Virus record (IMG/VR): IMGVR_UViG_3300010413_000015
Coordinates: 1-64,000 of that record
Source of the DNA: a virus
Length of the DNA: 64,000 nt
Strand: one strand, 5' to 3'
Positions 11,845 to 63,917 of the stretch are shown in pieces; position 1 is the first letter of the stretch, and every line of letters begins with the position of its first letter. The notes under the pieces are model-generated. The model worked only from the letters and a program-made list of their open reading frames with translations. It searched no databases and had not been told where the DNA came from. The translations under genes were made by a program, and so were the position numbers.

Positions 11845-11876
11845 AGGGAACAGTCGCCCCCCTGTTCACTTGACAG
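11838..11876. promoter_or_regulatory. Inverted repeat joining two divergent -35 boxes (operator-like)
   Basis: CTGTCAA-AGG-GAACAG (11838-11853) is mirrored by CTGTTC-AC-TTGACAG (11862-11876). Each arm includes the -35 box of one of the two divergent promoters, so one symmetric regulator could block both. Confidence 0.6.
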
Positions 11877-23593: not shown

Positions 23594-24039
23594 AGCGGCA
23601 ACCTCTGCACAATGCGCACTTCAGCAATAACCCATGTGCCCAAGGGGTCGTACTCAAACTGTAGATTCAGGTCCCCTCGTAGTTGGCCTGGCCAGTATCC
23701 GTCATCTCCAAATGAGAGGACCTCAAGGTCTGTGGCCAGCCATGCGTCCATAAGGTCATTGGCGTCCCCGACATAGATGTCTTCCTGGCCATCGTTCATG
23801 GTGGGATATGTCCCGTCTGGGGCCTGCACGATAAGCCTACCTGCCCATTGTTTGAAACCTCGTCTTGTGCCGACAGAACTCAGGAGGCGTCCATCATACA
23901 GGGATATGCCATAGCTAGTTGCTCCCTCGAAGATGGGCCCAGAGAAACCTTCTACCAAAACAGCGTAACACCGCTTCGAGGAGCCACTGTCCCACTTTAG
24001 GAAAAGTCCGCCCCTGCTGGTTGGAAACTCTATTGCCAC
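23590..24039 (-). CDS. Distal-tail-like protein (149 residues)
   Basis: Directly follows the tape measure gene (overlap 10 bases) and precedes the tip proteins, the usual place of distal tail (Dit) or minor tail proteins. Small, beta-rich, aromatic. No enzymatic motif. Assignment rests on order. Confidence 0.5.
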   Translation of the reverse strand: MAIEFPTSRGGLFLKWDSGSSKRCYAVLVEGFSGPIFEGATSYGISLYDGRLLSSVGTRRGFKQWAGRLIVQAPDGTYPTMNDGQEDIYVGDANDLMDAWLATDLEVLSFGDDGYWPGQLRGDLNLQFEYDPLGTWVIAEVRIVQRLPL

Positions 24040-27000
24040 AATCCCCCCCTCATTCTCTGCCTGGAGGCAGTCTTGTTCAGCTCTGCCTCAAACTTCCTCC
24101 ATATCTCGGCCGCCAGTTGTCTCTCGTCCTGCCTCCCTCCTTCAACCGAGATAGAGACGTTCATATTTCCGACGGAAAATCCGCTTGCGGTCAGCCTGCG
24201 GAGTGCCATGTTGGGGACAATGGTCCCATTCTGGTCTGGAACGAAAATCTCTGGTCCCACTTCACCCACCAGGTAACTACTCCCGGCTGTGACATCCCCC
24301 CCACCAGCCAGGCTGTTCCCGCTTCCACCTCCATCCCCTTGAGACTGGAACATACGGTTCAGGCGGTTCTCGATGCGGTCCAGAAGGTTCTGCCAGGCCT
24401 TGTCAAGGCTCGAATCCCTCTTGACGCTGCTCTCGAAGTGACCAATTAGGGTGTCCCACTTGCCCCAGAGGTCTCCGTCTTTCGAGAAATCGCTGAGCTG
24501 CTGCCTCAGGAAGGCAGCATAGGCATCTTGGGTCAGGTCCTGCAACCGCTGGTGCTCTATCTGGCCAGGGAAGACCACTTCCTCGAAGTACTTCTGTTCC
24601 TGGGTCATTTGGGCCAGGCGATACATCATATCGTCCTCAGCAATCTCTTGCTGTTTCGCGGCAATCGCCTGCTGCATCGCCGCCATAGCCTCTGCTTCTC
24701 CCATTTGCTCCTGGAGGTGCTTCATTTGCAGTGCAAACGACTCATCCATGTGCTTCTTGGAAAGGTCGAAGTTCTCCTGCATGTGTCGCTTCTGGAGCTC
24801 ATAGTTCTGCGTCATGTGCTCCTTCTGCATCTCAAACTGCTCGGTCTCTAGACGCTTGATATCTTCGTAGTGTGATTCCTGGTCTTTGAATGCCTGCGCC
24901 TGTTGGGCCCACAGCTTCTCCTGTCGCCCTTCCTCAACACCCCTACGCTTCTCAGAGACACCATAGTCCTCTTCCATACGTCCCCGCTGGCGGAGAAGCT
25001 CCTGCTTCTCGCGCCCGGAGGCGAAGCGAATGGCCCGGTTGATATCTTCCATCCCACGGGTGTACTGCACCCCAGCCTGTTGCCGGTTGAACGCCATATC
25101 TTCACGGCCCCAGCGCTGGCCCTGCATCATCTGTTGCCATTGAACACCGAACTGCCTTCTCTGGAACTCGGTGTTGACACCCCACATTCTCTGGCCTAGG
25201 GCAAAAGACGCTTGCTGTTGGGCATAGCCCTGCTCCAGGCTCTCCGTCCCTTGCTGGAAACCAAGGTTCAGCCGTTCCTGGCCCTGGCGATACTGAAGGC
25301 GAGCGCTCTCCATGGCTCGCTCAATACCGGCCCTCTGCTGTTGCGCTGCCATTGCCGCAGCCGCAGCCTGCATTCCGTACAGCTCTCGGGACTGTTCTAG
25401 CTTCAGTTCCGCTCGCTGGATTTGGCCTATCATGCCCATCTGGTAGGTTCTGCCACCATAGCTAGAGGTTGCCCACTGGCCAGTGCCCATGCGGTATGCC
25501 TGGCTCTGGCGTAGTTGGTTCCAGGACAGCGCCCTTGAAGCAAGCTGGCCTATGCCGTAGATACCACCACCAGGCCCTATCTCGTGTAAGGGCATAGCCC
25601 CCTCCACCAGGGGCATCCCCATAGCACTACGGAACCCACCTACGGCCCCCTGTGCCTCTGCGCCAAAGACCCCTTGGGCCGCACTGTATCCCAGGGCAGA
25701 GCTGGCAAAGTTGGCCATCTCCCCAAACTGGGCGTACTCGAAGGGAGTCATCTGTCCAGAGGCTAGTGCTGCCTGCAGGCCCTGCTCAAACTGCCCGGCT
25801 ACTGCCCCGGCCATGCCAAACCCTCTGGCCACAGCTCCTTGGCCCATTACAGACTGGGCCCATACCTGGCGAGCTGCAGGAGAAACGCCACGGGCTGCCA
25901 TTGCCTGAACCCGGCCCTGCAGGGCTCGGGCATTTCCGCCGAGGTACTGGTAGATTTGACCCCCAAGGCCGGCCGCAGCCTCATATTGGGCCATTCCCTG
26001 AGCGCTTTGCCATGGAGCATTGGCCATGAACCCTATGGCTTCTGGACTTCCTGCCGCAAAGCCATACTCTTGTGCCGCACCAACGCCAATGGCTGCCTGT
26101 TCCCTCCGAAGCATCTGCTCTGGGGTTACACCCGGAGGGGTATAGATGACTCGCCCGTCAGGGAGCTCAACCATTTGGCCTTCAAGTTCCTGCTGTAGCC
26201 CCTGATAGTATCGGGCCGCAGCCTCTGGACCAAGGCCGCGCATGTCTGCGAATGTGCGATACTGGCTGGCAATCTGTGCCGTGGCTCCACCAACTGCTGC
26301 GGTCTGAGGACCAAGTGTTTGCCCGATTCTCTGAGCTACTGCACTACCAGGTGTATACCCCATGGCAGAGACAATGGGCTGCATGCCATACCGGGCCTCT
26401 TGAAGAGCTGCAAGCTGGGTGGTTGTGACCCCACCAGCAAGCTGGCCCATGTACTGCTGTAGCATTTGTCCTGATACTCCAACTCCTATCTGTTGGAGTT
26501 GTCCTGCAACCCCTGAGGCCATGAGGAAGTTCTGTTGCCCGGCTGCTGTTGTTGGGATGTAGGGAGACAGGGCCCACATCCCTGCGCCCGTCCCGATCCC
26601 CAGATACTGGCTTACTTGCTTTAGGGTAGAGGCCATCCCGGGAAGCTGCCCACTAATGGCTGCTGGCCCGAGCTGCTTGGCCAGCTCATCTACTCTTCCT
26701 TCGTACACGGCCTTTGGCCCGTATCCGAGCTCGGCCAGATAGCTGAAGGTTTCGTACTTCTTTGCTGGGTCTAGACCTGGAATATCCAGGTTTTCGATGT
26801 GGAGGCTGGCCCGGTCAATCTCTATCTGGCCAGACTTCACATACTGCGCAACACCCTCGCGCAGTTGGCCTGCGTAGTCCTTGTCCAGAATCGAGCGCAA
26901 GCCCATGCCAACCCCTGTCCCAAGAGAGAGGTCGCCCTTGGTAGGCGAGCCCCCACCAGCCATGCCCTTGAGCCAGCTAAAGGCACCTCTCTGCGTCTCA

Positions 27001-30000
27001 GGCTCTGTGGCCAGACCGAGAAGCTCCCGGTAGACATTTCCGGGGGCAGCCTGTTCATAGGCCTGCCCAAGGAGAAGCCCCCCGGTCACAACGCCACCTG
27101 CCAGGGCGGCGATTGGGCCCATTCTAGAGCCTATTCCCATCATACCTCGCCCTAGAAGGCTTTCTCCCCCTAGCGTCTTTCCGAATCTGCCGAGCACTGA
27201 CGCGGCAATGCCGGCTTTCGCACCAAACTCGAGTCCCTTGAGAATAGGTCCACCAACTGCACCCAGTCTTTCACCGGCCCCATATGCGCCAGAGGGACCA
27301 CCTAGCGTTGCCAGTATCTCACTGATACCAGCTTGCCCTCGAAGTGTGCCCATACCGAAGCCCTGGGCGAAGGCCTGCTGGCCAGCCTGGGCCTGCATAA
27401 TCCTGCCCATGGGACTATCCATAATGGACTGTGCAGTACCCCCCATCTGTGTAGCAAACCCTATCTGGGCACCAGCAAGCCCCCGTGCCTGTTCCATAGC
27501 ACGGTTCACTGGTCCCCCAAAGATTCGCTCGGCCGCTGTCCAGCGGAAGTATGCACCGCCAAAGGAGAACTCCTGCAGGAGCTGGTCGAGGCCCTGGCCA
27601 AGTGTGCCACGCATGCCCTGTGGTCTCTTGGGAGCCGGCCTGCCCCTTTGTCCACCGGTAGCCTCATAAAGGTCGTACTGGAACTGCAGGGCGTCTCGTG
27701 TTTCCACAGCGCCGATAGTCTCTGTGAGGGCTGGCTCGTTCTCGATCTTCTCCAGTTTCCTGCCAAGACGTTGCATGTTTTGGGTTACTGTCGCAACCAC
27801 ATCTTGGGGGACACCTGCTGCAGTCAGACCCTGTGGACCAACTTTTGCCCATTGCTCCCTAATGTCCTGGGCCTGGCGGAAGGTCTTGGTGAAGGACTGT
27901 GCATCTTTCAGCATCTCCTTCTCGGCCCGAGTCAGGTCTCTCTGTACGGCAATGGTCTCCCTAAGCTCTGGGGTCCACTGCTTCAGATGGTCTGCCACCT
28001 CATCCAGGGTCTTCCTCATCGACCCTGACATCCACAATCCCAACTCCCAGGGCTTCCCGCTTCCGGCTGTCTGCCGGGGGTTCAGGTCACGTTGCTGTTG
28101 CCCCTGAGAGGGCGGTACAATTGGTGCGCCGGGGTCTACACCCGGAGGCACCCAGTTAGGGTCAAAGTTGGGGCCGGGCATCCCCGCCAGGGGGTCTGCC
28201 GGGTCAACTGGTGGCCTGTTGGGAGGCGGGGGAGCACCGGGAGGCGCAGCCACTGTAGGCCTGGCGGCTGCCGGCCGTCGGCCTGCCTGTTGGAGATGTC
28301 TCCTAAGCTGGCCAGGTCGCGTAACTGGGGACTGAGCCATTGCAGGTGCTGCAGTCGCAACCGGAGGCGTAGGCTGTGTGGCTGCTGGTTGAGTCACCTC
28401 AGTTGGTGGTGTAAGATTGGGTTCCGGCCCCATCTCTGGTGGCGCCACAGGGACCCTAGGTGCTCGCTCTGGGTGTGGGCTCTCTGCAACTGGAGGTTCT
28501 GCACCAGGTGTGGCTAGCCAATCTGCCATCCCAGACGCTTCCAGGGCCACTGCTTGTTCCTCAATACTGACCCCTTGTCCGGCCCCCTTCTTCAAAGCAG
28601 TAAGCCTGTCTTGCATCTCTGACTTAAACCTGAGAAGAGTGTCGGCCAAGTCCCGGCCCACGCTCCTGGCCCCAAACTCTCCGTACAGGTTGGCACCGTG
28701 CTTCTCTGCATACCGACTAACGGCTCCTGCCCACTGCCCACCGATTGCCTGTCCAGAGGCGGCCTCCCTTACCCAGTCCTCATGTGTCTGACCAGCCTTC
28801 ATCATTCGGGGAAGAATCTTGTATCGCTGCTCGGGTGCGGAGAATCGCTTGAACATCATCGCAAACTGCTGGGCCTGCTTCTGGTTAGGCCCGGAGAACA
28901 TTGCACCCGCTTCTTCGGGAGACACAACTCCCTGCTGTACAAGCTCGGCAAAAGCGCCGACACTCTCCTTGCGAAGTCCTGCAAGGTTTCGCAAGGTTCC
29001 GGTGCCTACTTTCTCCCATTCCCCGGTGCTGCGCATAAATGCCTTGCCCCAGGTAGTGGTATTCATGAGCGCATGAACACTCATGACGTCCTGGGGGGGG
29101 ATGGCGGGTCTCTGAGTATACCCATAGCTGCGGTTCCAGATAGACTGTACGGCAGACCTGGCTGTTTGGCCTACCTTCCCAGGAATCTGGAGTGCCCTAC
29201 TCATAAGCCTTCGCATGTCCTGGAATCCAGGACCTATTGCATTGTAGAGCTCCCGGTTTTCCTGAACAAGTTCCTCGACCTTGCCCTCATCCATGGTATG
29301 GTAGTCAAGGGCCTTTCTCCTGACAATCTCCATGGCCGCTTGTAGGTCTTGGTCTCCGGGAACCATCTCAGCAGGGAGGCTTCCAGCGCCCTCAGACTGC
29401 ACACGCTTGCGCCCAATCTCACGTACTCGTTCTGGAGAAAGCTCTACACCAGCGGCGTCGTAGAACTTGCTACCTTGCACCTGAGCCCCACCAGTCATCA
29501 GGGCATAGGCAATGTCTGCGTCAAAGTCGCCGCCAGCCATACCCTGTAGGTACTCTGACACTACCATCCGGTTGGGGTCATAACCTAGGCCCTCGATAAG
29601 CTCTCGGGACACAGTAATGCCCTGAGCTGCACGGTCAAAGCTGGACTCTCCCTGAGTGGGGAAGCGAATCATGAAACCTGCTTGCCCGGCCTCACGGTCT
29701 GGCAGGTACATCTCATTGATGCCCAGTGCCTTAGAGCCAAGCACCTTGTACCCCTCCAGGTACCTCCTGCCAGGTGTTACTCCCTGGGCCCGTCGGAGGC
29801 CCTGCTCGGACTCAGAAATCTTGCGTTGCTCCTCCATGACGGTCCTGCGATACTCGACAAACGGCGCCTTCTCCTGATTCAGAAGGGACCGGACCATGCC
29901 AAACTGCCCTCTAAGGTAGCGAGAGACCTCTGTTTGTTCGAGGGCACCTTCTGCTGAGAAGTACTTGCCGGAGCGGAAGGGGGCAGTAAAGAAGCCCTTG

Positions 30001-32099
30001 CCCCATTCGACAAAGTGCTTCCCGTACTTACTGCCCTTTGCCCCCATGATATCGAAGAACTTCCTGGCCACCAGCTCCTGGTCCATACCCTTCTTTGGGT
30101 CCGCTCCCGGAATGACCCTTAGGGATTCAGTAAGCCCCCTCATCCGTTGCACCCCGATGCCGGGTACGTTTGCAAGGTCTCTGATACTCTGGAAGGGCCC
30201 GTGTTGCTCCCGATAGTCAATGATAGACTGTGCCGTTTTTGGGCCAATACCTGCTGCTCTCTGTAGCGCCTTGATATCGGCACGGTTGATGTCCCCAGCC
30301 TCAACCTCGTACTCAGCCTGACCGACAGCCTCCATGAGCGCAGCCTGAAACTCGGGGTCGCTGGCACTGACAACGGGTGCCTGCAGCTCGCGCCGGGAAG
30401 GGCCAGATGCGAGAGTCGCGTTGATGACATCACGATAGGCGCTGCGGGTGCGAGCGCTAGCGCGTTCAAGCCTCCGGGCATACCTTGGATTCGTCGCTCT
30501 AAGGTTCTCCAGGTCCTCGTAGCCCAGGGTCCCAGCCTTTACGTCATACTCCTTCATGAGCTGGGTAAAGTAGTCGCCTACGAGAGCCTGCCGTCTCATA
30601 TTTAGCACGTAACGCCTGGGGTCTGCCTCTCCCGTGACCGGGTTTGTCCAGACCTGCTTCGGTCCCATGGCCGCGCCCATGATGTTGGGCCCGTACTCTG
30701 GGTCCCTGAGATAGTCTTCGTGGTAGACCTCGGGGATGACAATGTCCTGAACCAGGCCAGGAACATTTCTGGCCAGGCGCTGTAGGGGTCGGTCCCCAAG
30801 TTCCGCATAGTTCCTGGGCATGCTCAGGAGGGTGCTGTACCCAAGTTCCCTGGCAATCTGGTTCTTCCTCCGCAGGCCAGCTTGAGACCACTCTGCCTGC
30901 AACATTGAGTAGGTGGCCCCCTGCACGTCCTTCAGGGCAGAGACAAAGTCCAGGTTCATTGGCTGGCCTTGGACATCGGTGATGTTGCTGAGGTCCCTCG
31001 TGCCCATCAGCACCTTCTGGTAGGCCTGTTTTCCGGCGAAGGCTACTTCACTGGCAGGGGCAAACCGTTCCAGAACAAACTTCAGCTCTTCTTCTGTGGC
31101 CTCGCCTTCCTGGTTGGTGGCAGAGGTCCTCCGGGCCACATCCATGACACGGTAGCCCCATTCCCTATCACGAAAACCTGCAAGGCCCTCAGCAAGTTGC
31201 ACATGCTCACCCCGACCCCAGGAAGTGCCTACGGGTACAGGCTGTAGGCCCATGCCCCGCACTGTTCTTACTGTACGCTCTGTAACATTCCCAACACGGG
31301 GGTCCATCAGGCCCATGCCGGCAGGGGCGTGCTCACCACCGATAATGAGGGCGCCCCTTAGGTTCTGGCCCCGCTCCATGCCGTACTGCTCCCCTCCAGC
31401 AGCCAGGCCTGAGGTGACAACTGGCTTGCCACTGAGGAACACTTGCTGGTGGGCACCCAGCATTTGGATGCGCTTCATGAGCTTGCTCGGCTCGAAGGTA
31501 GAGATGAACCTGCCGGCGGCTCGCCCCAGCCAGCTTGACTCTAGGGTGCGCGTTGGGTAACTGAAGGCACCATCCTTGCGATAGATGTGTCCCTCTGGAA
31601 CAATGGGCTGTCCATACTCATCACGTTGTACGGGTACACCCTGAAGTCTGCGCTGCCTGAGCTGGCCAGGGTAGTGTGTCCATTGGGACTCAGACACAGG
31701 AGCATAGGAAATGCGCCGAATCTCCTGCTCGGTCTTGCCTTGCTTTCGGGCCTCTACCCTGGCCAGGTTCTCAAGTTCGGCCAGTCTTTCCTTGTACTGT
31801 GTGTAGTCTGGGGCGACAAAGCGCTCGAGCTCGAGGATTGCCTGTCTTACCCCACCAACTGTAGGTGAGCGAAGGGTAGGAACATACTTGCGAATAGCCT
31901 CCCGTGAGTAGCCATAGTTCATTGCTTGCCACAGGAAGTCTTCGTAGGAAGCAGGGTCACTTTCCCTTGTTCCCTTTGGGCCCTCTCGTCCAGGCCAGTA
32001 GGTCATTGCGTAGGGAGCTTCATCGTCATCCCACCAGTAGTCATCACTGCCGGGGTCCTCTCTGGGTACCCATGGCCCGAACTGTTCCCTATTTGGCAT
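24030..32099 (-). CDS. Tape measure protein with N-terminal RNA-polymerase-like and HhH segments (2689 residues)
   Basis: The C-terminus has the tape-measure hallmark GGGDVTAGSSYLVGEVGPE (about 2600) and, before it, long coiled-coil Gln/Met-rich helices (about 2230-2500). Hydrophobic Gly/Ala-rich stretches occur at about 1580-1680. It sits between the tail chaperones and tail tip. Unusual is the first third. Residues about 600-655 carry a tandem helix-hairpin-helix (AAGIGPKTAQSIIDY, NVPGIGVQRMRGL). About residue 812 has IRFP followed 46 residues later by AGGDFDADIAYAL (D858, D860, D862), like the RxP...DFDGD metal loop of RNA-polymerase beta-prime. A Pro-rich linker (about 1230-1360) separates this part from the tape measure. 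A virion-borne, injected polymerase or nucleic-acid protein fused to the ruler is the inference. Contains palindrome copy 5. Confidence 0.85.
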   Translation of the reverse strand: MPNREQFGPWVPREDPGSDDYWWDDDEAPYAMTYWPGREGPKGTRESDPASYEDFLWQAMNYGYSREAIRKYVPTLRSPTVGGVRQAILELERFVAPDYTQYKERLAELENLARVEARKQGKTEQEIRRISYAPVSESQWTHYPGQLRQRRLQGVPVQRDEYGQPIVPEGHIYRKDGAFSYPTRTLESSWLGRAAGRFISTFEPSKLMKRIQMLGAHQQVFLSGKPVVTSGLAAGGEQYGMERGQNLRGALIIGGEHAPAGMGLMDPRVGNVTERTVRTVRGMGLQPVPVGTSWGRGEHVQLAEGLAGFRDREWGYRVMDVARRTSATNQEGEATEEELKFVLERFAPASEVAFAGKQAYQKVLMGTRDLSNITDVQGQPMNLDFVSALKDVQGATYSMLQAEWSQAGLRRKNQIARELGYSTLLSMPRNYAELGDRPLQRLARNVPGLVQDIVIPEVYHEDYLRDPEYGPNIMGAAMGPKQVWTNPVTGEADPRRYVLNMRRQALVGDYFTQLMKEYDVKAGTLGYEDLENLRATNPRYARRLERASARTRSAYRDVINATLASGPSRRELQAPVVSASDPEFQAALMEAVGQAEYEVEAGDINRADIKALQRAAGIGPKTAQSIIDYREQHGPFQSIRDLANVPGIGVQRMRGLTESLRVIPGADPKKGMDQELVARKFFDIMGAKGSKYGKHFVEWGKGFFTAPFRSGKYFSAEGALEQTEVSRYLRGQFGMVRSLLNQEKAPFVEYRRTVMEEQRKISESEQGLRRAQGVTPGRRYLEGYKVLGSKALGINEMYLPDREAGQAGFMIRFPTQGESSFDRAAQGITVSRELIEGLGYDPNRMVVSEYLQGMAGGDFDADIAYALMTGGAQVQGSKFYDAAGVELSPERVREIGRKRVQSEGAGSLPAEMVPGDQDLQAAMEIVRRKALDYHTMDEGKVEELVQENRELYNAIGPGFQDMRRLMSRALQIPGKVGQTARSAVQSIWNRSYGYTQRPAIPPQDVMSVHALMNTTTWGKAFMRSTGEWEKVGTGTLRNLAGLRKESVGAFAELVQQGVVSPEEAGAMFSGPNQKQAQQFAMMFKRFSAPEQRYKILPRMMKAGQTHEDWVREAASGQAIGGQWAGAVSRYAEKHGANLYGEFGARSVGRDLADTLLRFKSEMQDRLTALKKGAGQGVSIEEQAVALEASGMADWLATPGAEPPVAESPHPERAPRVPVAPPEMGPEPNLTPPTEVTQPAATQPTPPVATAAPAMAQSPVTRPGQLRRHLQQAGRRPAAARPTVAAPPGAPPPPNRPPVDPADPLAGMPGPNFDPNWVPPGVDPGAPIVPPSQGQQQRDLNPRQTAGSGKPWELGLWMSGSMRKTLDEVADHLKQWTPELRETIAVQRDLTRAEKEMLKDAQSFTKTFRQAQDIREQWAKVGPQGLTAAGVPQDVVATVTQNMQRLGRKLEKIENEPALTETIGAVETRDALQFQYDLYEATGGQRGRPAPKRPQGMRGTLGQGLDQLLQEFSFGGAYFRWTAAERIFGGPVNRAMEQARGLAGAQIGFATQMGGTAQSIMDSPMGRIMQAQAGQQAFAQGFGMGTLRGQAGISEILATLGGPSGAYGAGERLGAVGGPILKGLEFGAKAGIAASVLGRFGKTLGGESLLGRGMMGIGSRMGPIAALAGGVVTGGLLLGQAYEQAAPGNVYRELLGLATEPETQRGAFSWLKGMAGGGSPTKGDLSLGTGVGMGLRSILDKDYAGQLREGVAQYVKSGQIEIDRASLHIENLDIPGLDPAKKYETFSYLAELGYGPKAVYEGRVDELAKQLGPAAISGQLPGMASTLKQVSQYLGIGTGAGMWALSPYIPTTAAGQQNFLMASGVAGQLQQIGVGVSGQMLQQYMGQLAGGVTTTQLAALQEARYGMQPIVSAMGYTPGSAVAQRIGQTLGPQTAAVGGATAQIASQYRTFADMRGLGPEAAARYYQGLQQELEGQMVELPDGRVIYTPPGVTPEQMLRREQAAIGVGAAQEYGFAAGSPEAIGFMANAPWQSAQGMAQYEAAAGLGGQIYQYLGGNARALQGRVQAMAARGVSPAARQVWAQSVMGQGAVARGFGMAGAVAGQFEQGLQAALASGQMTPFEYAQFGEMANFASSALGYSAAQGVFGAEAQGAVGGFRSAMGMPLVEGAMPLHEIGPGGGIYGIGQLASRALSWNQLRQSQAYRMGTGQWATSSYGGRTYQMGMIGQIQRAELKLEQSRELYGMQAAAAAMAAQQQRAGIERAMESARLQYRQGQERLNLGFQQGTESLEQGYAQQQASFALGQRMWGVNTEFQRRQFGVQWQQMMQGQRWGREDMAFNRQQAGVQYTRGMEDINRAIRFASGREKQELLRQRGRMEEDYGVSEKRRGVEEGRQEKLWAQQAQAFKDQESHYEDIKRLETEQFEMQKEHMTQNYELQKRHMQENFDLSKKHMDESFALQMKHLQEQMGEAEAMAAMQQAIAAKQQEIAEDDMMYRLAQMTQEQKYFEEVVFPGQIEHQRLQDLTQDAYAAFLRQQLSDFSKDGDLWGKWDTLIGHFESSVKRDSSLDKAWQNLLDRIENRLNRMFQSQGDGGGSGNSLAGGGDVTAGSSYLVGEVGPEIFVPDQNGTIVPNMALRRLTASGFSVGNMNVSISVEGGRQDERQLAAEIWRKFEAELNKTASRQRMRGGLWQ
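24166..24178. repeat. Dispersed palindrome TTTCCGACGGAAA, copy 5
   Basis: Perfect 13-bp palindrome, central A, near the 3' end of the tape measure gene (encodes FSVGN). Confidence 0.95.
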
Positions 32100-32406: not shown

Positions 32407-32984
32407 CCCTCGGCGGGGTTCCTCCAGTCGAAAGGCGGATGCCACGCAATGAGCTTCTCGACAATCTCCTCTGCCAGCTCTTCCGGAAAGTCTGGACGGT
32501 ACCAGACCCCATAGAAGCCGGTGCGAACCCTGTCGTTGAAGGGCCCATTTAACTTGCGGCACGTCTTGCCCGGAACGAACACTGGGGTCTCGTTGTCGGG
32601 CTCTGTGATGTTGCACTCGATGAGGGTCATGGCCACCATTTCTGACTCCAACACAGTAAGAGGAACACGTTCCCTCTGTGTCACACGGCCCCGTTCCTCA
32701 GTGCTCCACACCAATTCACTACGGGCCTGCATAGTAGCCAGATTCTCTCCCTCAAGCCGAGAGGGCCGTTGAAACTTGACGTAGGTGCCCCCCGTTTCAT
32801 CCCACCTGGTAAGCGGGATGGCCTCACTTGTAACTACTCCCTCCAATGGCCTTGCCATTTCTGCTACCTCCCATGTGCGTCTGATTGATTCCCACAGGGG
32901 GGCTTCGTCAAGGACAGTGCCAGGCCTCTGCCCCCCTGTGTGGCTGATAGTTTTTTCCGACGGAAACCGGACTACGTTGGCCAA
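32397..32984 (-). CDS. Tail assembly chaperone (G-like, 195 residues)
   Basis: Lies between the tail tube gene (13-base overlap) and the frameshift partner and tape measure, the invariant place of the G protein. Mixed fold, acidic C-terminus (HPPFDWRNPAEGED). Begins ANVVRFPSEKTIS, where RFPSEK comes from palindrome copy 6. Assignment is by order and by the overlapping -1 frame. Confidence 0.65.
   Translation of the reverse strand: MANVVRFPSEKTISHTGGQRPGTVLDEAPLWESIRRTWEVAEMARPLEGVVTSEAIPLTRWDETGGTYVKFQRPSRLEGENLATMQARSELVWSTEERGRVTQRERVPLTVLESEMVAMTLIECNITEPDNETPVFVPGKTCRKLNGPFNDRVRTGFYGVWYRPDFPEELAEEIVEKLIAWHPPFDWRNPAEGED
32403..32409 (-). promoter_or_regulatory. Candidate -1 frameshift (slippery) site
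   Basis: On the complement GGGGGAA, read as GAG GGG GAA just four codons before the stop of the G-like gene. Slipping back one base enters the downstream chaperone frame. The P-site tRNA-Gly re-pairs perfectly; the A-site pairing after slippage would be imperfect, so efficiency is uncertain. Confidence 0.45.
32954..32966. repeat. Dispersed palindrome TTTCCGACGGAAA, copy 6
   Basis: Perfect palindrome, central A, in the first codons of the G-like chaperone gene (encodes FPSEK, a third reading frame). Confidence 0.95.
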
Positions 32985-34003
32985 TCGTACCCGCTCGTCC
33001 CATTTTGCAGGCGCAGATACCAGTCGGCCCCAGCATCAGCATCCGAGACCGTGCCAGTCATCCGCATCTGGACCAGGCTCGCGCCACGAAGGCCAACGGG
33101 CTCGCAAGTCCAGTCGATGGACCCAGCATAGAACCGGAGCTCATAGGGGGTCGTTCCCGTGACGTTGGTTGCAGACTGCACTGCCACGTCGATACTGGAG
33201 TTGTACACTACCGGACTCCAAGCTGCGGCATTGTAGTGCATGCTTTGGTATAGGTCGGGCTCGTCCCACAGGGCCTGGAACTGCATGGTAATCTGGCGGC
33301 CAAGGACCGGGAAGTCATACGGATAGTAAGACCCACCGACCAGGACCTCCCGCAGGTCTGGCATGATGTTGGTCATATCCAGAACGATGGCGGTTGAGAC
33401 TTCGTTGGGTGTTCCATCTGGAAGCTCGAACACACCCTTGCACGAGATGGGAACTGAGTCCTCATTCTTGGCAGAGAAACTCCACCCTGACCCATCGGGG
33501 TTGGTGGGAACTCGGCCCAAGAAGTCGGCACGTAGGCTGGTAAACTCGCCAGGGGCAAGGTTGAACTGCAGCCTTGCGACCTTGAGGTCTTGGAACTGCT
33601 CGTACAGATGGGTGGTCGTGCCAGGGACCTTCCGGCGGCCAGACAGATACTTCTGCGGAGCTGTCTCATCAAGGCCACCGGACGGGAACACGTGCTGATA
33701 AACGGAAGCGACCGGCACGTCGCTTACGCTAGAAACTGAACCGGCAAAGGCGTACAGCAACCACCCCAGTTGGTCGTCCAGGGGCGGAGGTAGCACCAGG
33801 CCACCCTCAACCCACGCAGCGGTCTTGATTTGACCACCGGGCAGCAACGTCCCACCAACCAGGTTTCCAACACCACGATACATCTGACCTGGTGACAGGT
33901 CAACCACGTTGGCCTTGAACCCATGGAAGGTAGTCGCTGCCGTCCCGCGTGCAGTCTGGGGGCCTAGCCAGAACCGGCCGAGTGAACCGGACTGAAGGCT
34001 CAT
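32972..34003 (-). CDS. Major tail (tube) protein
   Basis: The 343-residue product starts at ATG 34003 (complement) after AGGAGGAAAAG. It is beta-rich with a long central loop region, in the position directly before the chaperone pair and tape measure. Segments such as QFQDLKVARLQFNLAPGEFTSLRADFLG and its mirror near the C-terminus (SLVQMRMTGTVSD) resemble the repeated strands of tail tube folds. An upstream extension is rejected because the ribosome site clearly marks 34003. Confidence 0.7.
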   Translation of the reverse strand: MSLQSGSLGRFWLGPQTARGTAATTFHGFKANVVDLSPGQMYRGVGNLVGGTLLPGGQIKTAAWVEGGLVLPPPLDDQLGWLLYAFAGSVSSVSDVPVASVYQHVFPSGGLDETAPQKYLSGRRKVPGTTTHLYEQFQDLKVARLQFNLAPGEFTSLRADFLGRVPTNPDGSGWSFSAKNEDSVPISCKGVFELPDGTPNEVSTAIVLDMTNIMPDLREVLVGGSYYPYDFPVLGRQITMQFQALWDEPDLYQSMHYNAAAWSPVVYNSSIDVAVQSATNVTGTTPYELRFYAGSIDWTCEPVGLRGASLVQMRMTGTVSDADAGADWYLRLQNGTSGYDWPT

Positions 34004-35190
34004 CTTTTCCTCCTGTTGTGAATTTCCCTGTAAGCGTTCCACCAGAGGGACCAGGTCTGGTCTATGGACCGATTGGTCCTTACCCAACTCTGTCCCTTCC
34101 TTAGCAAGCGCTCACGATAGGGCTTGTCTGTGACCAGTTTGGCGATTGCGTCGCACCACGCGCCCACCTCGTAGTGGGGGACGGTCAGCCCCCGCTTGTT
34201 CTTCCCTGTAACCCGGTTGTAGTAGAAGATATCTGAAGTGACAGGCACTCCACCTGCCGCAAGGCCCTCAATGGCCTTGATGGCAGACTTTCCCAGGTTG
34301 AAGTTGTCATCTGGTCGAACCGGGCAAAGGATGATGTCACCTTGCGCTACAACCTCAGCGTACTGATGGTAAGGTACTGGCTCGTTGTAGTGAACCCTGT
34401 CTGGGAACTGGTCCCTGAGAGGGCTCAGATACTCGGGTTCGTAGGCCCCAATGAGAAGGTGTACTTCCTTATGGTTCTGGAGCACCTTTGGCAGTACACT
34501 TTCCATGATTCTCCAGTCCGTCTCATGAGTTGGGCTTCCCGTTAGGGCCACGACTACCGCATCCTGTGGCCAGATGTCCCACCGACTGTGCCCTTGCCAC
34601 TCGTCCCAATTGACTACATTGGGCAGGATGTACACAGGCACGCCAGGAGCAAACTTCTGGTACAGGCTCCGTAGATATTCAGTGGTCACTGTAACCGCGC
34701 TTACCTTGGCCATCAGCTTGTGAAGAAGGTCGTATTGGTCGTACTTCAGGTCTCTAGAGTTGCTGAAGTAGTCATCGTCATACTCGAGTACAACAGATTG
34801 CTTGGTTCTAAGGATATCCACCAGGTCGATCAGGTGAGACTCCCTGGCCAGTTTGATTCCCAGGGACTGTTCCACCTGGTCAAGCATAGGCTCCAGCTCT
34901 TCCAGGGAAGGTGTCTGGTCTCCTGTTTCGTTCTCGGTTGCGCCATAGGGAATAGGCCGGTGTCTTGGCAGCAGCAACATGTCGTACCTTGTTGGCTTGG
35001 CTCGCACGTTGGGGTCTACCGCCGCTTCCCTGGCCTTGTCTATGGGCATCCAATCCAGAAAGGTGCCCGGCACCCTCCTCCGGATCTCCTCGAAGGGAAT
35101 CCGGAAGCGGTAGTGCTCGCAGCCACCCATGCGCATGTCTGTGCGCAGGTGCATAGCTAGAACTGTTGGATGTTCTACGTTACCAGGCAT
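34000..35190 (-). CDS. GT-B (GT4-like) glycosyltransferase
   Basis: The 396-residue protein has a GT-B layout: an N-terminal Rossmann half, then VVALTGSPTHETDW and HLLIGAYEPEY. The donor-site stretch is FNLGKSAIKAIEGLAAGGVPVTSD, with the ExxxxGxP-type pattern of family 4, and a C-terminal WVRTNRSIDQTW. It overlaps the tail tube start (ATGA) and is set among head-tail connector genes. This suggests modification of the virion itself rather than a random cargo. Acceptor and sugar unknown. Confidence 0.8.
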   Translation of the reverse strand: MPGNVEHPTVLAMHLRTDMRMGGCEHYRFRIPFEEIRRRVPGTFLDWMPIDKAREAAVDPNVRAKPTRYDMLLLPRHRPIPYGATENETGDQTPSLEELEPMLDQVEQSLGIKLARESHLIDLVDILRTKQSVVLEYDDDYFSNSRDLKYDQYDLLHKLMAKVSAVTVTTEYLRSLYQKFAPGVPVYILPNVVNWDEWQGHSRWDIWPQDAVVVALTGSPTHETDWRIMESVLPKVLQNHKEVHLLIGAYEPEYLSPLRDQFPDRVHYNEPVPYHQYAEVVAQGDIILCPVRPDDNFNLGKSAIKAIEGLAAGGVPVTSDIFYYNRVTGKNKRGLTVPHYEVGAWCDAIAKLVTDKPYRERLLRKGQSWVRTNRSIDQTWSLWWNAYREIHNRRKR

Positions 35191-57170: not shown

Positions 57171-57183
57171 TACAACTGAATAC
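57171..57183 (+). repeat. Right-arm motif TACAACTGAATAC, copy 1
   Basis: Ten bases after a stop codon; followed by a stem (CACGCATG/CATGCGTG, 57199-57225) whose loop holds CCTTAATTGC. Confidence 0.6.
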
Positions 57184-61718: not shown

Positions 61719-63917
61719 ATGAAGCTCGCCGTTCTCGCAATTCTCACCCTGGTGTGGGAGGGGACCGTGCCGTACCTCCACACACTCTACGAGGCTCTCG
61801 TGGGAGAGCCTCTGGCAGTAGTCCAGGTCAGCACCAAGCCCAAGCACCGCCAGTGGATGACACGCCTGCTGGTAGGGCTTCAGGACAAGGGGTGGCACCT
61901 GGACTTTGCCACAAGTGCCAGAAAGAGCGGACAGGCCATCATTTCCCAGACTGGGAAAGTGTCCTCGCTCTTCTGGCGCACGGCTGAGGAGGCCATTGCC
62001 TATGGCAGTATCCTTCTCACGCCGTGCTGGGGTGCGTACCCCCAGTCCATGACCCTGAAGGTTCGGGTGGTGGAGGATGGGGAGTACGACACCGGGGATT
62101 GCCACGGCAAGGCGAGCCGGGCAGTCTATGCCGCCCTTGGTGGTGTTGTGCAACAGGCCGCACAGTTCCGCCTAGGGGTCCTGGCCGGTGGCTTGCTGGC
62201 CAAGGGCACATTCTGCATCCCAGATGTGTCCCTCGCCTGGCCAGACGGGGTAGACCTGATTCTGCCCCGGAGCTGCTTCAAGAGCAGCAACAAGCCTGGC
62301 CCTGGCACGTATACCTGGGACCTGGTCCTGGGTGTCGTGAACTGGAGCAAGCCCACCCCGACCAAGATGGGCTGGCAGATGCTCCAGTGGTTCAGTTGGG
62401 CAGCGGTAGAGGCCGACATCCTTCCCAGGGTCAAGGAGGGAGCAGCCCAACTGGTTGCCGCCCTGGCAGATGTCAGGGCACTTGCCGAGCTTCTCCGGCT
62501 ATACTCTGTGCCCAGCATCGACACAGAGGACGGGGAAGATGACCAGGCCGAGGTCTTGCTCATCGACGTTCTCCGAGCAGACCACAGTGGCTACCTGTCC
62601 CGGCACCCACACGTAGTTCGGCGGGTGAGCGACATGCTGCGCCGACGGTGGCAGCACCTCGCAACCGGTGGTGGGCAGTTCCTGACCGGCCTTATGGGGC
62701 TACCGGATGACACCCTGCCATTCGGGGTGGTGGCCACCAGCGACATCCCTGTCGGAGATGTCCTTGTGACCCGGTATCCCATCAGGTTCTGGGGTGACGT
62801 TCGGAAATGGGTCAACGTCGCGCCCGTCCAGAGCCTCAAGGGCACCATCTGGATGTCCCATGAGACCGCTGCCGTGCTGGGTGGCGATTTCGACGGGGAC
62901 TACTTCCAGGTGGTTCCGTCAGCCACCTATCCCGCCCTGTCCCAGGACATGGAGAACTGGGCCGACCGCCCCACTGTGAATGTGGTCAAGGTCAAGGATA
63001 GGAGGGCCACCCCCCTGAGTGCCCAGGGGCTGGCCGAGGTCTTTATGAGCAATGTGGACAACATGGTGGGTAATGTGGCCCTGCTCATTGCCCGTGCTGG
63101 CGCTGCCGGCAACCATAACGCAGTTGTCCAACTTGCCCAGGAGTTGCAGGTCGCCGTTGACAAGTTCAAGTTCAACGTAGACAACGACACCGACTTCATT
63201 GATGCCTGCAACACGTCCATTCCAGACCTCACATGGGCATGGGACCGTGAACACCGCGATGCCTACCATGCCCGGCCGATGAAAGTGCACGAGCGGGATA
63301 TGGACACCATATCCTGCCTCATCCGGGAGGTCAATGCCCTGTGGGTTCCTTACCAGGGTATGGCCCTTCCCCTATGGCACTTCACCGGCCTGTTCTCCAA
63401 GCCCGACCAGCACATGGATGCAGCTCGTGGGCTGGCAGTGAGGTATGCTGCCAATGTGCGCACGGCTCTCCGTGCCGGGGACAAGAAGGCCATCTCTAAG
63501 CTCTTCAAATCCCTGGAGGCGTGGTCGCGGCAGGTGGAGAATCCGACCGAGTGGGCTGCTGCCATCTGGCATGCGGTTCACGCGGAGAATGCCAAGGGCA
63601 CCGGCTCGCTGGCCTTTGCTGCGTTTCCGACGGAAATTGCAGAGAGGGTGGCCAGCCTGCCGTCCACCCCCGAGGCACCGCGCAATGCCACCATTGTTGG
63701 CCTGGAGAAGAACGAGTGGGCCAACAACGCGAACGACCTGGTAGGTGAGCAGCAGGTGATGTTCGATATCACCACGTTGCATGGCCAGGTCCGGTTCTCC
63801 GCCGTGGTAGACGGGCGGGTGGTCGGCATTGTCTCCAAAGAGACCCCTGTCCCCCAGGGGACATTCACCATGGGTCTCACGGTAAAGGGCGCTTGCGTGT
63901 ACGCGAGTGCCTCCTAG
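61719..63917 (+). CDS. YonO-like single-chain RNA polymerase (732 residues)
   Basis: Carries RNA-polymerase catalytic hallmarks. VLVTRYP at about 352 is followed, 38 residues on, by GGDFDGDYF (D390, D392, D394), matching the RxP...NADFDGD spacing of the beta-prime double-psi beta barrel. An upstream barrel-like part has GDCHGKAS (about 127) and QFRLGVLAGGLLAKGTF (about 150-163), which recalls the first barrel with its catalytic lysine in QDE-1/YonO proteins. The part after the loop (VDNMVGNVALLIARAG) may be the bridge helix. Two barrels in one chain and no zinc domains point to the YonO-like phage polymerases. The C-terminal part holds palindrome copy 12 (FPTEI). Likely transcribes middle or late phage genes. 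Confidence 0.75.
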   Translation: MKLAVLAILTLVWEGTVPYLHTLYEALVGEPLAVVQVSTKPKHRQWMTRLLVGLQDKGWHLDFATSARKSGQAIISQTGKVSSLFWRTAEEAIAYGSILLTPCWGAYPQSMTLKVRVVEDGEYDTGDCHGKASRAVYAALGGVVQQAAQFRLGVLAGGLLAKGTFCIPDVSLAWPDGVDLILPRSCFKSSNKPGPGTYTWDLVLGVVNWSKPTPTKMGWQMLQWFSWAAVEADILPRVKEGAAQLVAALADVRALAELLRLYSVPSIDTEDGEDDQAEVLLIDVLRADHSGYLSRHPHVVRRVSDMLRRRWQHLATGGGQFLTGLMGLPDDTLPFGVVATSDIPVGDVLVTRYPIRFWGDVRKWVNVAPVQSLKGTIWMSHETAAVLGGDFDGDYFQVVPSATYPALSQDMENWADRPTVNVVKVKDRRATPLSAQGLAEVFMSNVDNMVGNVALLIARAGAAGNHNAVVQLAQELQVAVDKFKFNVDNDTDFIDACNTSIPDLTWAWDREHRDAYHARPMKVHERDMDTISCLIREVNALWVPYQGMALPLWHFTGLFSKPDQHMDAARGLAVRYAANVRTALRAGDKKAISKLFKSLEAWSRQVENPTEWAAAIWHAVHAENAKGTGSLAFAAFPTEIAERVASLPSTPEAPRNATIVGLEKNEWANNANDLVGEQQVMFDITTLHGQVRFSAVVDGRVVGIVSKETPVPQGTFTMGLTVKGACVYASAS
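63624..63636. repeat. Dispersed palindrome TTTCCGACGGAAA, copy 12
   Basis: Perfect palindrome, central A, inside the polymerase gene (FPTEI). Confidence 0.95.

Follow-up and report, generated by a model that had tools for sequence, protein, structure and literature searches.

The first ~1170 residues of the tape measure protein (TMP) of this phage stand, in our estimate, an even chance of being a highly divergent two-barrel RNA polymerase (RNAP) module of the type carried by gp96 of Thermus phage P23-45. The proposition that the N-terminal module has an RNAP-derived fold is likewise about evenly balanced; that it is an active polymerase is put lower, at roughly one chance in three. The case for a fused RNAP is built on the match to the gp96 architecture, on the score of the residues flanking the candidate metal loop, on the restriction of DFD[AG]D to the TMP and a second RNAP-like protein (P0002), and on a comparable protein in another phage. 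Positions refer to the window, the whole 64,000-nucleotide stretch that was analysed, or, where stated, to the 74,951-base record that contains it.

The first-pass annotation had located the TMP open reading frame correctly, leaving its strand (minus) unstated, and had called the C-terminal part a tape measure. This identity was borne out by PHROG profile searches, in which residues 2598-2666 matched phrog_30701 (E 4e-6) and residues 2599-2687 matched phrog_5062, ‘tail length tape measure protein’ (E 0.006), as well as by the position of the gene after a phrog_290 tail gene and by the proline-rich linker that separates off the N-terminal third. The linker sets the N-terminal module cleanly apart from the tape. 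The gene lies within a siphovirus-like late block, of a phage of bacteria, together with a terminase (P0004, Walker A GGRGCGKS, as read from sequence) and a portal gene (phrog_64 match). The structural block also contains a glycosyltransferase-like gene (34000-35190, minus strand; phrog_7162, E 2.5e-22).

Table 1. Positions in the window of the tape measure gene, its parts and associated features.
Feature	Position	Strand	Basis
Tape measure protein gene, 2689 aa	24030..32099	-	single ORF, 2689 codons
Tape measure C-terminal domain, aa 2598-2689	24033..24308	-	phrog_30701, phrog_5062
Tape region, aa 1351-2597, Gly/Ala-rich then highly charged	24309..28049	-	composition, sequence reading
Proline-rich linker, aa 1201-1350, 25-31% Pro	28050..28499	-	composition
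N-terminal module, aa 1-1170, candidate virion RNAP-like region	28590..32099	-	ends before proline-rich linker
Candidate DPBB-A (metal-loop barrel) segment, aa 804-870	29490..29690	-	PSSM and natural-decoy test; weakly predicted strands/helix
GGDFDAD, aa 856-862, candidate Mg loop, Ala replacing Gly	29514..29534	-	sequence
RFP, aa 812-814, counterpart of conserved RxP	29658..29666	-	sequence, alignment
Tandem helix-hairpin-helix (HHH_3), aa 603-653	30141..30293	-	PF12836 E 5.2e-16
Tail tube / minor tail protein, upstream of TMP	32972..34087	-	phrog_290 E 4.5e-6
TACARMYRAATA site 1, candidate phage-specific transcription element	57171..57182	+	motif search
P0002, 732 aa, two-barrel RNAP-like, candidate non-virion RNAP	61719..63917	+	PF05183 E 9.5e-10, aa 145-490

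The sole confident domain in the N-terminal module is the tandem helix-hairpin-helix (HhH), already recognized on first reading and placed here by PF12836; it is ComEA/Tex-like, with matches to ComE proteins and Tex. The same reading had likened RFP...GGDFDAD to the metal loop of the beta-prime type, pointing to its spacing and to an alanine in place of glycine, and both features hold. The R-to-D distance is 46 residues in the TMP (R812-D858) and 38 in P0002 (R352-D390), as compared to 36-42 in the genuine set. The TMP retains the RxP and each of the three aspartates, and the alanine of DFDAD was seen in no member of the genuine RNAP set used here. The R, P, G and DFD.D columns line up across nine proteins. 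DNA encoding DFD[AG]D occurs in exactly two places in the record, the TMP and P0002 genes, and the read-backwards control gave 0.

GGDFDAD alone is not diagnostic. Searches with the DNA patterns for GGDFDAD, GDFDADxxY and GGDFDGDxx[YF] returned mostly unrelated proteins and some genuine RNAP-like ones. GGDFDAD was carried by 77 IMG/VR stretches and, as such or as a near variant, was encoded in many GTDB stretches; most of the proteins in both collections are unrelated, and the motif by itself is therefore weak evidence. Nine DPBB-A segments that are genuine or well supported (gp64, gp96, TSP4, P0002 and five IMG/VR proteins) were used to build a PSSM without the DxDxD and GG columns, such that only the flanking blocks were scored, and 60 natural proteins with the same motif served as decoys. 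With a training set that includes P0002 of the same phage and block limits picked by the analyst, the TMP flanks scored 9.2 and ranked 1/61 (best decoy 7.9, decoy mean -13.7, sd 7.3; shuffle p 0.001), which falls within the scores of genuine RNAPs when held out (-4.0 to 18.6). At the sequence level, it is the flanks, rather than the motif, that raise the TMP GGDFDAD above chance.

Profile searches, of the kind proposed by the first-pass annotation, gave no significant match for the TMP. HMMER with the full profile of genuine segments did not list the TMP in the set of 5029 ORFs, and with a subset profile the TMP reached E 0.23, level with chance decoys. Homology of the TMP to gp96 was negative by hhalign and tblastn, with no hhalign match to the gp96 family at DFDAD. 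In anchored pairwise alignments of the TMP, the L024 protein described below, P0002 and gp96, the best TMP-gp96 downstream value was p 0.017 before correction and was given no weight. As on first reading, no catalytic lysine or DPBB-B was recognized in the TMP; in a low-power test, its best lysine block was no better than shuffles (p 0.63). Two candidate lysines that are attractive by eye, K481 (GPKQVWTNP) and K701 (WGKGFFTAP), were rejected for scoring no better than chance. The lysine-barrel test also gives low ranks to the sites of gp64 and P0002, whether true or candidate (59 for the P0002 site), and gp96, a proven virion RNAP, is likewise missed by PF05183 and PF00623. Because accepted and candidate members are missed or barely found as well, the failed profile and lysine searches on the TMP say little either way.

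Close relatives of the N-terminal module were absent from IMG/VR; INPHARED and plasmids gave HhH matches only, and the terminase search gave only a weak fragment. With close relatives found for neither the module nor the terminase, the phage counts as an orphan, and sequences for a deep alignment were lacking. A Rhizobium phage match (H20) was dropped as a relative because it is antisense to annotated genes. The structure prediction proposed earlier was run on AlphaFold2 and gave low confidence: pLDDT was 38 without relatives, and 49 (pTM 0.32, no PDB match) when nine presumed homologues were supplied for the loop segment. The second, low-confidence model places strands at 807-811, 845-848 and 863-866 and a helix at 849-855; this weakly predicted order, strand-RxP followed by strand-helix-loop-strand, is that expected of DPBB-A. 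As its alignment consisted of presumed homologues, this run would have been partly circular even had it been good. Of the original polymerase-like reading, the metal loop thus gained from the flank test and from the second RNAP-like gene in the genome; a complete polymerase is not supported, given that no catalytic-lysine barrel was recognized, sequence searches were non-significant and structure prediction was uninformative.

P0002 exceeds the curated PF05183 cut-off (38.2 bits as compared to 23.8) with a match that includes the metal loop, and carries a candidate catalytic lysine, K162 in AKGTFCIP, RYP at 352 and DFDGD at 390-394. The 12-base TACARMYRAATA occurs at exactly five sites around P0002 (57171, 57707, 59494, 60160 and 64958, the last outside the window), all intergenic and on the plus strand, and the next best match is far weaker. 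These five copies compare to 0.15 expected for a motif picked after inspection. The element may be a promoter or 3’-end element of one phage polymerase. Perfect or near-perfect sigma-70 promoters are present at 11870 (plus strand, 12/12), 1645, 64384 and 65657, from which host RNAP probably serves some phage genes, as in P23-45. An ORF resembling HTH-type repressors (record 65160-65915, minus strand; L003:5161-5916) overlaps a 12/12 sigma-70 promoter and may indicate a temperate lifestyle. An odd palindrome, TTTCCGWCGGAAA, has 14 dispersed copies, about one every 5 kb (record positions 2335, 9497, 13623, 16832, 24166, 32954, 38449, 46486, 53320, 58034, 59237, 63624, 68409 and 72736), some of them within genes, including those of the TMP and P0002; the copies look like stoperator- or parS-like sites.

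A second orphan phage, an 81.7-kb IMG/VR contig (L024/L081), encodes a 1631-aa protein with IHRQP...GGDFDADQVY (L024:7023-11915, minus strand; L081:8001-12896). Small tail genes, then a 1253-aa protein, come before it and a baseplate block comes after, gene roles here being a reading of the sequence; it apparently occupies the tape-measure slot of a contractile-tail-like module. The protein reached E 0.0015 by HMM in the set of 5029 ORFs and a PSSM score of 2.9 (shuffle p 0.007); the TMP as query found nothing in the L024 record. One such case among the 77 could be due to chance, since much of what phages encode is tape measure. Other phages (L131, L136 and L137) have open frames of >3,800 aa with RxP...GGDFDGD and sub-threshold PF05183 matches, possibly giant virion polymerases.

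These data can be read in more than one way. RFP and DFDAD may be coincidental and the N-terminal region an unrelated domain fused to the tape measure, for example an HhH DNA-binding or assembly domain holding the leading DNA end. The presence of GGDFDAD in many unrelated phage proteins, the non-significant searches and the HhH as the only confident domain agree with coincidence, whereas a flank score above all 60 decoys, a second RNAP-like gene in the genome and the exact architectural precedent in P23-45 argue against it; we regard it as a real possibility, short of an even chance. Loss of catalysis from an RNAP-derived module, which would now serve the ruler structurally or by binding DNA, appears unlikely. 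It would account for DFDAD where DFDGD is expected and for the lack of a recognizable catalytic-lysine barrel, and DNA binding could come from the HhH. However, the three aspartates and the RxP are all kept, and lysine-barrel detection fails even on P0002.

A gp96-type module remains the preferred reading, and working as in gp96 is, by analogy, the best-supported mechanism; with it we infer a barrel fold, catalysis, ejection and promoter use. Against it weigh the non-significant searches, the unrecognized lysine barrel, the alanine of DFDAD, the wide R-to-D spacing, the low-confidence models and the near-perfect sigma-70 promoters, which show that host RNAP is able to start some genes. The RNAP module, forming the head of the ruler, would be packed within the tail tube and would exit together with the ruler at injection. 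The proline-rich linker would keep it tethered near the DNA entry channel, where it could transcribe the first-entering genes, probably including P0002, with genes behind sigma-70 promoters left to host RNAP. More tentatively, tape-measure-fused virion RNAPs may have arisen or spread well beyond Thermus phages, the TMP being an active one with a DFDAD loop, its own HhH and a cascade from virion to non-virion RNAP. If true, having the tail ruler deliver a polymerase as its head would be a general strategy rather than a Thermus-phage oddity, and would explain transcription of the second-polymerase gene in phages that carry one. It would also raise the questions of how a polymerase passes via the tail tube and works tethered at the entry channel, and of what variation the universal DFDGD loop tolerates.

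To date, a virion RNAP fused to a tape measure has been proven in just a few Thermus phages, and gp96-module relatives among INPHARED phages were likewise found in Thermus phages only; the systems compared were P23-45 (PMC10770324), P74-26, G20c, TSP4 and stolb1-3. In crAss-like phage gp66 and N4-type virion RNAPs the polymerase is also carried in the virion within a large protein (PMC10770324). The candidate polymerase of the TMP would share this trait, but gp66 and the N4-type enzymes are not reported to be fused to a tape measure. The N4 virion RNAP has a different, T7-like fold. P23-45 also encodes a separate non-virion RNAP, gp64 (PMC10770324), to which P0002 would be the candidate counterpart. 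P0002 shares with gp64 and other QDE-1-like proteins (PF05183) the relative order of RxP, D[FY]DGD and a KG block, whereas its pairwise match to gp64 is weak (BLASTP E 0.16). PHROGs labels the family of gp64 (phrog_25317), a proven non-virion RNAP, ‘head protein’. The TMP differs from gp96 in having no detectable sequence similarity to it, DFDAD instead of DFDGD, an R-to-D distance of 46 instead of 38, an HhH domain, 2689 instead of 5002 residues and no identified lysine barrel. Because the homology tests were negative, it is not filed in the gp96 sequence family. In P23-45 the virion RNAP forms the N-terminal part of gp96, the tape measure (active core 327-1124, DFDGD at 779-783), and was itself spotted via DxDxD in a virion protein whose remainder lacked detectable RNAP similarity (PMC10770324). 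The first-pass annotation had called P23-45 similar in idea; the precedent stands and was understated, since the architecture is the same. As in gp96, an RNAP-like module lies N-terminal to the tape measure in one ORF, with RxP...DxDxD, ~310-345 residues from metal loop to module end and a proline-rich linker further along the chain.
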